This document shows positions 15,815 through 57,500 of a DNA stretch of 64,000 nucleotides, in pieces (the first letter of the stretch is position 1; every line of letters begins with the position of its first letter). A program made the position numbers and the translations under genes. The notes beneath the pieces were generated by a model. The model did not search any database. It saw only the letters and a program-made list of their open reading frames with translations, and was not told where the DNA came from. This stretch comes from Levilactobacillus suantsaii (GTDB taxonomy: Bacteria > Bacillota > Bacilli > Lactobacillales > Lactobacillaceae). Where the stretch lies: positions 1 to 64,000 of the forward strand of contig NZ_QXIL01000008.1 of assembly GCF_004115745.1 (NCBI RefSeq), in the 5' to 3' direction.

Positions 15815-15832
15815 GTGAAACAATTGTTTCAC
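15815..15832. promoter_or_regulatory. 18-bp palindrome built from inverted parS half-sites
   Basis: GTGAAACAATTGTTTCAC is a perfect palindrome in the leader 24 bp before rsmG. Firmicute parS is TGTTTCAC followed by GTGAAACA; here the same two half-sites appear in the opposite order. It may be an operator for autoregulation by Noc or Spo0J, or an unrelated repressor site. Confidence 0.55.
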
Positions 15833-53558: not shown

Positions 53559-54233
53559 TCAACTATGGTAGCGCCAGTAAAGTGACACCGCAAAACAACT
53601 TGTGGCCACCAGGATAATGCTAGTCAGCAAAACAGTGTCCCAAGGTGTTGGCAGAATGTAGGTGACGCCAATGGGAGACAAGGATGTAACGAGAATGGCA
53701 GCCACTCCTAGTAGGAAAATCAGCCCCATGAGAATGACTGGGAGATGCCGATGGAAAAATGAATGTGCGTTCTGGTAGGTCGTGCGATGGAGCAGTTTGA
53801 ACGCTACGCCGATGACGATGAGTTCAACGATTGGCACCCCCACAAAGGCTAGCAGATTCAGCTGCAGGCCTTGGGGCGTTTTCTGGCTACTGAGGAGTAA
53901 GGAGAACCAACTAATGCCGATAATTAGGGCGACGAATCCAGCCAGGTCACGGAGCTTAGCGCGCCATTGTGGTTGCGGAAATTGGCGGAGAATTTCGTCG
54001 GCCATGCTTTGCGGGTCGTGGCCGAACCATTCCGCAGCGTTTAGGCCGTCTTGATTGGCGTTGAGTAGGTCCTGGAGCATGGCCAATAATTGGGCGTTAA
54101 TTGGGGCGTTGCTATAAAAAACGGTTGCGGTATTGAGGTAGACTTGTAAGTCATCGATGTATTTGCGGTCCGCCGGTGACAGCTGGCGTTTAAGCTGATT
54201 AATGGTGGTTAAATCACGGTTGGGGTTCGTCAT
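53559..54233 (-). CDS. Membrane protein paired with PadR regulator
   Basis: The 224-residue protein has a soluble helical N-terminus of about 95 residues (LSPADRKYIDDLQVYLNTAT, then AAEWFGHDPQSMADEIL) followed by four membrane segments. The layout recalls DUF1129/DUF1048 proteins that often follow PadR genes. The PadR gene overlaps its start by 20 bp, so translation is probably coupled. Function unknown; envelope stress or export is common for such pairs. Confidence 0.7.
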   Translation of the reverse strand: MTNPNRDLTTINQLKRQLSPADRKYIDDLQVYLNTATVFYSNAPINAQLLAMLQDLLNANQDGLNAAEWFGHDPQSMADEILRQFPQPQWRAKLRDLAGFVALIIGISWFSLLLSSQKTPQGLQLNLLAFVGVPIVELIVIGVAFKLLHRTTYQNAHSFFHRHLPVILMGLIFLLGVAAILVTSLSPIGVTYILPTPWDTVLLTSIILVATSCFAVSLYWRYHS

Positions 54234-54558
54234 GGGTTAATGCCTCCGTTAGAATTTGATCAACGTTGCCTTTTAATTGCGTCCATTGCTGGCTGAATTC
54301 CGTTAACGTTTGGGTCCCCTGGGGCGTTAATCGATAGTATTTCCGATTAGGCCCAGCAGGGGAAGGCTTGGTGCGACTGGCGAGGTCACCGTTGCGTTCG
54401 AGCTTGACCAGCAGGGGGTACAGAGTCCCCCCAACGATGGTGGTGAACCCACGGTGTTTCAACGCTTGCATCAGGTCGTAGCCGTAAACTTCTTTTTGCG
54501 CAATAATGGCCAGAACGCAGCCTTCTAAGACGCCCTTGATGAGCTGGGTCTGTTTCAT
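54214..54558 (-). CDS. PadR-family transcriptional regulator
   Basis: The 114-residue protein starts at ATG 54558 behind AAGAGG. PadR pattern: LEGCVLAIIAQKEVYGYDLM, GGTLYPLLVKLERNGDL, and GPNRKYYRLTPQG. It probably represses its own operon through the operators immediately upstream. Confidence 0.92.
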   Translation of the reverse strand: MKQTQLIKGVLEGCVLAIIAQKEVYGYDLMQALKHRGFTTIVGGTLYPLLVKLERNGDLASRTKPSPAGPNRKYYRLTPQGTQTLTEFSQQWTQLKGNVDQILTEALTHDEPQP

Positions 54559-54633: not shown

Positions 54634-54746
54634 TTGCTAGGGACTAAATTAAGCTGACTTAACTCTTTTCAGTAGAATTTAAGCGTGAGGCAGAAAAAGA
54701 TGACGTTTTTTCGGAAATATCCTTAGTCAAAACAACTGCCTGGTTG

Positions 54747-54767
54747 TATAATACGATATATCGTATT
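54747..54767 (+). promoter_or_regulatory. R-M promoter -10 overlapping an 18-bp palindrome
   Basis: TATAAT (54747-54752) overlaps the perfect palindrome AATACGATATATCGTATT (54750-54767), 18 bp before the methylase start. Confidence 0.8.
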
Positions 54768-54785
54768 TATTGACGAGGTGAAGAC

Positions 54786-55811
54786 ATGAAGATTCCAGAG
54801 TTATTAATTGAACATAATACCTCGGCGAAGACCATTGCGGCGCACCAAGCAATTCCTTATATGACGTTACAATCCGCGTATAAGCGTCCCTTGGAAACTT
54901 GGTCGGTGGCGGTTTTAATTGCCACGGCTAAAGAAATTGGAGTAGGAGTGGAGCATTTGATTACACTTTTGGATATTTCCGATCCACTATCCCCATTTAT
55001 TAAATGGGTAGGGGGTAAGCGCCAATTACTCCACAGCTTGAACTCGTTAATGCCAACGACGTTTAACCGTTACTACGAACCGTTTATTGGCGGGGGGGCC
55101 TTTTTCCTGAATTTAGCGCCTAAACGAGCGGTAATTAATGATTTCAATCCGGAATTGGTGAACACTTGGCAAGTTGTCCAAGAGTCGCCCAAAACGCTGT
55201 TGGAAATTTTACAGGTTCATCAGGCCAAAAATAGTAAAGACTACTACTTGGATTTACGAAGTGCCGACCGGGATGGCCGATTAGAAAAGATGTCTCCGGT
55301 AGAGCGAGCCGCTCGCTTTATTTATATGAATAAAACGGGTTTCAACGGTCTCTGGCGGGTCAACCAGCGAGGACAGAATAACGTGCCTTATGGCCGGTAT
55401 AAGAACCCTAAAATCTGTGATGAACGCATTCTATTAGCAGCGGATTATTTAGCAAATAATGATGTTCAAATTCTGTGCGGCGATTATCGGCAGGCCATAG
55501 TCACAGCTAGTGAGGGTGATTTGGTTTATTTTGATCCACCGTATATTCCAGTGACGTTATCATCGTCGTTTACGTCGTATACGAAGGATGGCTTTGGCTT
55601 ACAACAACAGACTGAATTACGAGATACGTTTGTGGACCTGACGAGTCGAGGCGTGAAAGTAATGCTGTCTAATTCAGATGTGCCATTAATTCAAGACTTG
55701 TACGGGACCATTCCGGGAGTGACCGTGCACCATGTCCAAGCACGCCGAGCTATCAATTCAGTTGGGTCTAAGCGGGGCAACGTTGTTGAGGTTATTATCA
55801 CTAATTATTAA
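54786..55811 (+). CDS. DNA adenine methyltransferase (Dam/DpnM type) with N-terminal DNA-binding-like segment
   Basis: The 341-residue protein starts behind GAGGTG. Residues 1-65 are a helical segment (SAKTIAAHQAIPYMTLQSAY) resembling a helix-turn-helix. From residue 70 the class-alpha N6-adenine methylase follows: FIKWVGGKRQ (72-80), YEPFIGGGAFF (S-adenosylmethionine loop near 97-107), DPPY at 250-253, and SNSDVPLI. Dam/DpnM enzymes usually modify GATC. It protects the host against the nuclease encoded downstream. The extra N-terminus next to a palindrome suggests that it represses its own promoter, as in some fused C5-methylases. Confidence 0.85.
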   Translation: MKIPELLIEHNTSAKTIAAHQAIPYMTLQSAYKRPLETWSVAVLIATAKEIGVGVEHLITLLDISDPLSPFIKWVGGKRQLLHSLNSLMPTTFNRYYEPFIGGGAFFLNLAPKRAVINDFNPELVNTWQVVQESPKTLLEILQVHQAKNSKDYYLDLRSADRDGRLEKMSPVERAARFIYMNKTGFNGLWRVNQRGQNNVPYGRYKNPKICDERILLAADYLANNDVQILCGDYRQAIVTASEGDLVYFDPPYIPVTLSSSFTSYTKDGFGLQQQTELRDTFVDLTSRGVKVMLSNSDVPLIQDLYGTIPGVTVHHVQARRAINSVGSKRGNVVEVIITNY

Positions 55812-55827
55812 CAATGCTTTTAAAGCA

Positions 55828-55878
55828 GACTTAAGTCGTGGCTGTTTAATTATGGCCAGTCTTAAGCCTTTTTTGTGC
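55828..55878 (+). terminator. Hairpin between methylase and nuclease genes
   Basis: CTTAAG-TGGC pairs with GCCA-CTTAAG, followed by TTTTTT. It may attenuate nuclease expression. Confidence 0.6.
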
Positions 55879-55973
55879 ATCACGAGTTTGGCCAAATTAA
55901 ACCTGTTTGTTGGGCAACGGACATGGTAATCTAATAGTAGAAAAAGTCGGTTTAACTTGAGGGGGCCATAGAG

Positions 55974-57500
55974 GTGGGGAAAAAGTTTAAATTACACTAT
56001 GCATTGGAGTCGTATAACAAACGCAATAACAAGCCCAGTTATGCTTGGGAAATCTTGTTTAAGAAATATGACATTGTTAATGAAATTGAAACGCACGGGT
56101 ATTACGACATTAAGACGGATCAAATGATGCGCAATAATGAGGTTATTCAGCTTTGGCAACGGGACCATGCTGGGGTGTCGATTCCGGATAATCGAAATAT
56201 TTTAAAGTTTGATTTTTCGGCCGATTTACCGAATATCTTTAAGGGTTATCGCCTGCAGATTATGCCGCTAGGAGGGAACACTTACCGAATTGCACCGTTT
56301 CAAATGTACCATCAATTGAAGAATGAAGATGTGCCGGTCATTCCCATGGCTAGTCCCTTTAAAATTGCGAGTTTGGATTTTAATCACGTCACCACGGAAC
56401 CTAATGCTCAGACAGTTGCTGAAGTAACGGGGATGTTGGCTTACGTCTTTCATGATTTAAACCCGGCTAATCGGATGGTTGTGAGCACATTGAGTGGTAA
56501 AAATAACATTCGCAACATTAAATTTAACGTTCAGAATGTGCTGGATAAGCAACCTATCACATTTGATATCGAAACCTGGCAGGCGGAAATTGATGGTGTC
56601 TACGAGTCCGAAGAATCTATCTTAATTATTGAAAGCAAGATGAAATTTCCTAAAGACTTTAATATCCGGCAGTTATTTATTCCGCGGCTATTGATTGAAC
56701 AGATTATGACCAAACTGCAGCAACGTAAGGACGTTTACGCGGGTTACTTCGTAAAGACGAAAGACATCTATATTTTCACGATTTATAAATTTACCGATTT
56801 GATGGATATGAATTCAATCAAGTTACAACGCCAGTATAAATTTAGCCTGCCAGATGATCCGACGCATGTGTTTACCATTGAAGGCCCCAAGCGACAAGCC
56901 ACACCTTTGAAAAGTGTGGCGGATATTCAGGACTTTATCGAAGAGATTTCGGTCCAGCAAGATTATCCGCGTTATTCTAATGGCGCTATCATTAGTTTTC
57001 CGCAGGCCAATAATTTACAAATTGCGTTGGATTATTTGGAGCTGTTAGATGGACCGGCATCGTACACGACCATCAATGATGAGAGCGTACCGCGAGTAGG
57101 CGCGGAAGCTTTTGTGGACGCCTTTAAGTACGATCGCCGCCAGTACAATTATTATCTTAATTGGCTGGGATACTTAGGCTTTGTGGACCGAGAAGCGAAA
57201 ACGGGGCGACCAGTGGTGACAACTGCCGGTCGTAATCTGAGAGAAGCAAACTTGAATCAGCGTAACCGCATACTCATTTACGCAATGGCACAACATTTAA
57301 GTTCACGGGAGACGTTACACCGTCTTTTGAACCAGCAGAAAGTGACTAACGATTACTTAATCCAAGTTATCCAGCAGGAGATGCAGAACGTTCCGGCTAG
57401 AAGCCGAATAACAAAGTCAACCTTGCCAAGGCGAATTTCTAGTGTGAAATCGATGTGCAAGCAGGTCTTGGCGCAGATGCAGGTTTTTGATAGGTCGTAG
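55974..57500 (+). CDS. Type II restriction endonuclease, PD-(D/E)XK type
   Basis: The 508-residue protein starts at GTG 55974 with GAGGGGG upstream. A nuclease core is visible: EIDGVYE with Asp207, then a hydrophobic strand and IIESK with Glu220 and Lys222, giving D-X12-E-X-K. A C-terminal winged-helix-like region (YNYYLNWLGYLGFVDREAKT) may bind DNA. It follows the methylase after 162 bp in the same direction. The region is more AT-rich than neighbouring genes, consistent with transfer. The recognition sequence is inferred (GATC-like) only from the methylase family. Confidence 0.75.
   Translation: MGKKFKLHYALESYNKRNNKPSYAWEILFKKYDIVNEIETHGYYDIKTDQMMRNNEVIQLWQRDHAGVSIPDNRNILKFDFSADLPNIFKGYRLQIMPLGGNTYRIAPFQMYHQLKNEDVPVIPMASPFKIASLDFNHVTTEPNAQTVAEVTGMLAYVFHDLNPANRMVVSTLSGKNNIRNIKFNVQNVLDKQPITFDIETWQAEIDGVYESEESILIIESKMKFPKDFNIRQLFIPRLLIEQIMTKLQQRKDVYAGYFVKTKDIYIFTIYKFTDLMDMNSIKLQRQYKFSLPDDPTHVFTIEGPKRQATPLKSVADIQDFIEEISVQQDYPRYSNGAIISFPQANNLQIALDYLELLDGPASYTTINDESVPRVGAEAFVDAFKYDRRQYNYYLNWLGYLGFVDREAKTGRPVVTTAGRNLREANLNQRNRILIYAMAQHLSSRETLHRLLNQQKVTNDYLIQVIQQEMQNVPARSRITKSTLPRRISSVKSMCKQVLAQMQVFDRS

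Follow-up and report, generated by a model that had tools for sequence, protein, structure and literature searches.

A two-gene type II restriction-modification (R-M) locus in a genome of the Lactobacillaceae encodes a DpnM-type methylase that is, with high probability, its own transcriptional repressor, acting via an N-terminal helix-turn-helix (HTH) domain on a palindrome in its promoter. The locus and its relatives carry this additional HTH domain and a conserved operator, and both are absent together from a nested group of relatives. We infer binding of the HTH domain to the palindrome, and repression, from sequence; comparative footprinting of the related loci gives strong support to the methylase autorepression that the first-pass annotation had proposed, and the methylase very probably switches itself off. 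The window (the whole 64-kb stretch of DNA that was analysed) holds the following features, with reading frames taken from the ORF list.

54724-54752, + strand: putative methylase promoter, sigma-70-like, TAGTCA - 17 nt - TATAAT, 10/12 consensus matches
54750-54767, no strand: perfect 18-bp palindrome, AATACGATATATCGTATT, proposed operator
54786-55811, + strand: methylase ORF, 341 aa
54786-54983, + strand: XRE/Cro-C1-type HTH domain, methylase residues 1-66, outside the D12/DpnM fold
54984-55811, + strand: DpnM/Dam-type N6-adenine methyltransferase domain (PF02086, 6.2e-64; TIGR00571, 3.5e-80; PDB 2dpm, 3.4e-100)
55827-55874, + strand: hairpin followed by a U6 tract, probably an intrinsic terminator ending the methylase transcript, z -3.3
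55974-57500, + strand: nuclease ORF, 508 aa, GTG start; DUF6996-DUF6997-DUF7226 with a PD-(D/E)XK core and a C-terminal FokI-recognition-like part

As expected of a type II system, the methylase gene adjoins a nuclease gene, which follows 162 bp downstream, and PADLOC profiles identify the two products as MTase_II (1.6e-99) and REase_II (PDLC03513, 1.2e-34). No ORF of at least 60 aa lies between 54560 and 54786 and no XRE-type ORF was noted adjoining either gene, which supports the first-pass reading of a system with no separate control (C) gene; no second methylase adjoins the window's methylase. On the minus strand at 53559-54558, a PadR-type regulator adjoins a protein weakly similar to DUF1129/HAAS_TM, a neighbourhood that is poorly conserved in the genus. 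The flanks of the locus are matched in just 4/35 and 5/35 genus genomes, the window's own genome counted, and because of this poor conservation no insertion boundary was found by empty-site comparison.

An HTH domain additional to the methylase

The methyltransferase domain belongs to the D12 class at full length, covering positions 1-253 of 253 in PF02086 and 2-267 of 267 in TIGR00571. Alignment to the solved DpnM structure (2dpm) starts at residue 67 and that to Pfam D12 at residue 74, so residues 1-66 are additional to the methylase. The first-pass annotation had recognized a DNA-binding-like segment here and held that its reading would fail if residues 1-65 were an ordinary part of the methylase fold; they lie outside that fold and form a separate XRE-type domain, and because this domain is additional and HTH-like in relatives and model, the reading withstands this test. 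Pfam HTH_26 (Cro/C1 type) is matched by 7/14 members of the fusion family at E up to 1 (best E 2.4e-5), and the window's own methylase has no Pfam HTH match. Its AlphaFold2 model has five N-terminal helices (residues 3-9, 14-21, 25-32, 41-51 and 55-63), the usual XRE layout, with pLDDT of 68-92 in ten-residue blocks over residues 1-60 and a low-confidence joining stretch at residues 64-76. On this model, residues 14-21 are proposed as helix 2 and 25-32 as the recognition helix; I23, Y25, T27 and W39 are invariant among the fusions, the first three in or beside helix 25-32. The window methylase thus has the N-terminal HTH outside the methylase fold that characterizes dual-function methylases, and the promoter of its gene carries, at sequence level, a palindrome other than the methylation site. 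That methylation site is probably GATC, judging from similarity to DpnM, the DpnII-family partners of two related fusions (L003 and L091) and the GATC clusters in sister-clade promoters described below.

The HTH-DpnM fusion was found at 14 loci (13 distinct), window included, all in Lactobacillaceae. It lies on contigs of Lactiplantibacillus plajomi (L002), Weissella oryzae, Periweissella fabalis, Lentilactobacillus parabuchneri, Lacticaseibacillus brantae, Apilactobacillus waqarii and three other genomes, and on plasmids of Leuconostoc, Fructilactobacillus, Lactiplantibacillus and Levilactobacillus; plasmid records H81, H83 and H85, of the same type as L084 and L085, are outside the locus set. 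Among 397 genomes of the family, the HTH profile gave 11 strong matches (E below 1e-20), each at the start of a 342-356-residue frame encoding one of these methylases, and weaker matches in other frames (best E 2.9e-10). Among 395 genomes of the order, three matches span the HTH start through the methylase, all in Lactobacillaceae; a match outside the family (G716) begins at model position 17 and passes through seven stops. The gene tables of L082 (3995-4153) and L083 (4007-4198) begin the methylase 3' of the HTH domain, and the regulatory domain is therefore missing from the annotated proteins.

Of the best 40 of 961 matching phage records, 38 begin at query residue 65 or later, and two records of Escherichia phage D6 match from residue 21 at 33% identity. 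A fusion in viral contigs was considered and rejected: 2/24 loci (L133 and L136) match from residue 2 or 9, and stops precede the methylase in both. In L133, a small frame from position 522, XRE-type by eye, lies just before a Dam-type methylase and is separated from it by stops, an unfused, C-protein-like arrangement.

A conserved operator in two geometries

The sigma-70 promoter of the methylase is a consensus match only, and such matches are no more numerous in the region than in shuffles. Its TATAAT -10 (54747-54752) is overlapped by the palindrome, as the first-pass annotation had described; the palindrome is perfect, ends 18 bp ahead of the ATG and consists of half-sites AATACGA and TCGTATT placed head to head, 11 nt from start to start. 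The 2.43-Mb draft genome has no second copy of it at up to 3 mismatches. Perfect palindromes of at least 18 bp number two in the 64-kb window versus one in total in ten Markov-shuffled 64-kb sequences; the second, GTGAAACAATTGTTTCAC, is at 15815-15832. Head-to-head half-sites are found in the window and in L. plajomi (L002), where the palindrome is identical and at the same distance from the ATG; the two promoters agree at 25/25 positions across the site, compared with 22/56 before it and 6/18 after it.

Exact AATACGA/TCGTATT occurs within 100 bp upstream at 10/14 fusion loci, compared with 1/83 HTH-less relatives and 0/22 Lactobacillales controls, and with one mismatch at 12/14 compared with 22/83 controls (5/22 for the Lactobacillales controls), the word having been derived from the same promoters in which it was counted and the control start codons set automatically. 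Without choosing a word beforehand, AATACGA is present in 9/13 promoters and no 7-mer is commoner; in shuffles, some 7-mer reaches nine promoters in 2/1000 and AATACGA itself reaches at most three. L085, a near-copy of L084, is not counted among the 13 or the 10 rows of these statistics.

The ten class II loci share a tail-to-tail repeat, TnGTATTT..AAATACGA, with words 29 nt apart, forming a 36-bp site with the -10 in its middle. At up to 4 mismatches to TCGTATT/AATACGA, this repeat is present at 9/10 loci versus 2/83 controls, and a motif-free search of all inverted repeats at spacings of 7-60 recovers it at spacing 29 in 9/10 with up to 3 mismatches, where 400 shuffles give at most 7. The weakest class II locus, L014, has 5 mismatches, a score at least equalled by another position of the same promoter; L090 offers only a degenerate site, with 5 mismatches to the head-to-head form. 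Since the window half-sites are opposite in polarity to those of the class II loci, one HTH type would have to read two geometries; like the weak sites of L014 and L090 and the smaller one-mismatch contrast, this counts against the proposed autorepression. We lean towards a Lactobacillaceae family of N6-adenine self-repressors, in which a portable methylase-repressor module associates with three nuclease families and dimers would read its single half-site in either of two opposite geometries (11-nt head-to-head and 29-nt tail-to-tail), with a switch between them within the family.

Two other uses of this region were rejected. GATC is absent from 54640-54830 and 55800-56000, so promoter methylation is not needed for control at this locus. 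An RNA hairpin formed by the operator arms is unlikely, because with the -10 in or at the operator the transcript should carry one arm only.

Relatives without the HTH domain

In a tree of 73 methylase domains (same-genome copies, rows under 255 bits and rows short of residue 320 left out), the fusions group in a single set of 18 rows (94/85, short of the strict threshold). Five HTH-less Limosilactobacillus rows belong to it too, nested in a fork that they share with six class II rows (100/94). Within 250 bp, none of the five has an exact half-site, and each has at most one word with a single mismatch. Joint loss of HTH and operator is the simplest reading of these sequences; a new promoter context alone could also explain the missing operator. 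At L007 and L011, the methylase frame begins where an upstream gene, ATPase-like by eye, ends.

In a sister clade, also HTH-less, 8/11 rows have a tandem repeat at the start of the methylase frame with a unit that is not a multiple of three: the 7-bp AGCAACA, 12-35 times, in L015, L106, L107 and L113, and the 4-bp AACC, in 14-21 perfect copies, in L017, L019, L020 and L104. The repeat lies 3-6 nt after an ATG in the seven rows with the start on the contig. The methylase is in frame with an upstream ATG in L015, L107 and L020 and has no in-frame start in L106, L019 and L104; the frame is undecidable in L113, at a contig edge, and in L017, with Ns. From these repeats, the methylases look phase-variable; no paper on phase variation in Leuconostoc was found in the literature searched. 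A DUF6997-type nuclease adjoins six of the eight.

Seven of seven sister-clade promoters (L015, L017, L019, L020, L104, L106 and L107) have 3-5 GATC in the 120 bp upstream of the ATG, compared with shuffled means of 0.43-0.81, and in each of them one GATC stands 10 nt ahead of the start codon; near relatives make up several of the seven. L012 and L013 of the same clade have no promoter GATC, and HTH-group promoters have none in 9/13 and 1-2 in four. The clusters suggest that the sister clade may be controlled by GATC methylation, and they support GATC specificity.

The nuclease and its counterparts

The first-pass annotation had called the nuclease unfamiliar and proposed an HMM search as a check. 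That search returned known families, namely DUF6996, DUF6997, DUF7226 and the PADLOC REase_II model, and the description holds to the extent that no solved relative was found by sequence. The whole model had no Foldseek match at E 0.001, and no paper on DUF6997 was found in the literature searched. Q203, E205, D207, E211, E220 and K222 are invariant in 14 aligned nucleases (window included, one partial) and sit on model strands 202-211 and 215-222 as the PD-(D/E)XK residues; the window nuclease is predicted to be active. In the model, residues 336-506 match FokI 4-273 over 162 residues (Z 9.5, rmsd 4.0), and in a structural ranking of the C-terminus two FokI entries lead, followed by Nt.BspD6I at Z 6.6. 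In FokI the recognition part is ahead of the catalytic core; by model comparison, the window nuclease has a likewise recognition-like C-terminus with the catalytic core preceding it, the reverse order.

Nucleases of three families partner the fusion, in gene orders that vary between loci. A DUF6996/6997/7226 nuclease is beside it in the window, L002, L006, L090 and L093, a DpnII-family nuclease in L003 and L091, and a small PDDEXK_11-like protein in L005, L085 and L082 (just under the Pfam cut-off); a PDDEXK_11-like partner was recognized by eye only in L004, L014 and L083, and L084 has adjoining pieces annotated PD-(D/E)XK. In L002 (4673-6279) and L093 (1-1441) the methylase frame is open and the nuclease gene is split over two frames, so these two nucleases may be broken.

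Proposed control and alternatives

In the scheme we favour, the XRE-type domain, probably as two copies, would bind the AATACGA/TCGTATT half-sites over the -10 and start site, and bound methylase would shut out RNA polymerase once enough of it had accumulated. In a new cell the operator would be empty and methylase would be made first; later, feedback would hold methylase at a level that still permits restriction. Transcription of the nuclease would probably come mostly from its own weak start behind the terminator, a predicted promoter, and any delay would then come from promoter strength, not attenuation.

Dual control resembling SsoII/Ecl18kI, in which bound methylase represses its own gene and raises nuclease transcription directly or by promoter competition, is unlikely for the window. 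It would suit L006, where the operator is inside the 68-bp gap between divergent methylase and nuclease genes, as described for Ecl18kI in excerpts of PMC3874152 and PMC12707154; in the window, however, the nuclease lies downstream across a gap with no half-sites at 0-1 mismatches, and in L002 it is convergent.

The first-pass annotation also had the nuclease delayed by attenuation at a T-tract hairpin between the genes. The hairpin is present (55827-55869, with U6) and is stable (-15.4 kcal/mol, 0/200 shuffles as good); a simple terminator scan did not list it. As an attenuator coupling nuclease expression to the methylase transcript it is improbable: the stretch 55806-55980 is not unusually structured overall (z -1.1), and on inspection neither a competing antiterminator nor a leader peptide or conserved element is apparent. 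The conserved, regulated hairpin of an attenuation operon is not seen among the relatives examined, in which gene order and gap vary: the nuclease is convergent in L002, divergent in L006 and 16 bp behind the methylase in L090, and terminator-like hairpins stronger than the window's occur in L002, L082 and L085, with the nuclease behind them in the latter two. Attenuation and a conserved operon order were rejected on these varied arrangements, which point to the hairpin being, probably, an intrinsic terminator of the methylase transcript.

That the N-terminal domain aids methylase scanning or target choice and is not a repressor is very unlikely; repression is deduced from sequence and the domain is joined by the low-confidence stretch, which would allow such a role, but it leaves the conserved site at the promoters of HTH-bearing genes unexplained. 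Least likely of all is that the palindrome serves some other regulator, such as the nearby upstream PadR protein (54214-54558), as operator. We reject this, as the palindrome persists in L002 next to other upstream genes and the half-site accompanies the HTH fusion across varied gene contexts, including plasmids.

Comparison with known systems

The self-repressing methylases M.SsoII, M.Ecl18kI, M.EcoRII, M.MspI, M.ScrFIA and M1.LlaJI, as named in excerpts of PMC3978073, are all C5-cytosine enzymes, a class also treated in parts of PMC3874152 and PMC12707154. M.SsoII has an N-terminal HTH region (residues 1-71 with linker) before its methylase domain, binds a palindromic site unlike its methylation site and represses its own gene (PMC3978073, excerpts). 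The window system shares with this SsoII/EcoRII type, as these excerpts present it, an N-terminal HTH on the methylase and a palindromic site in the methylase's own promoter; it differs in having a D12-class N6-adenine, DpnM-type enzyme in place of the C5-cytosine domain, and in half-site, operator geometry and nucleases. The XRE-type HTH acting on an R-M promoter operator is likewise found in C-protein systems (PMC3978073 and PMC12707154, excerpts), whereas here the HTH is fused to the methylase. Compared with the DpnII system (DpnM, DpnA and DpnII), the window methylase domain has 53% identity with DpnM over the structural alignment, and L003 and L091 adjoin DpnII-family nucleases, L003 together with a second methylase of the N6_N4 class; however, DpnM aligns from fusion residue 67 only, and the window has no adjoining second methylase and a nuclease of another family. 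The working principle proposed for the window system is therefore known, and its enzyme class, operator and partners are different. No HTH-fused adenine methylase was found in the literature searched by title or abstract start, a search with most subscription journals outside it.

If the proposed control is true, methylase autorepression is not confined to C5-cytosine enzymes but extends to adenine methylases of the Dam/DpnM class, and the operator is predictable from sequence. Among the close relatives there is a natural experiment, with HTH and operator in one group, both absent in another, and GATC-rich promoters and repeats behind the start codon in the sister clade; it allows testing of how R-M systems exchange their means of control and yet retain the enzyme.
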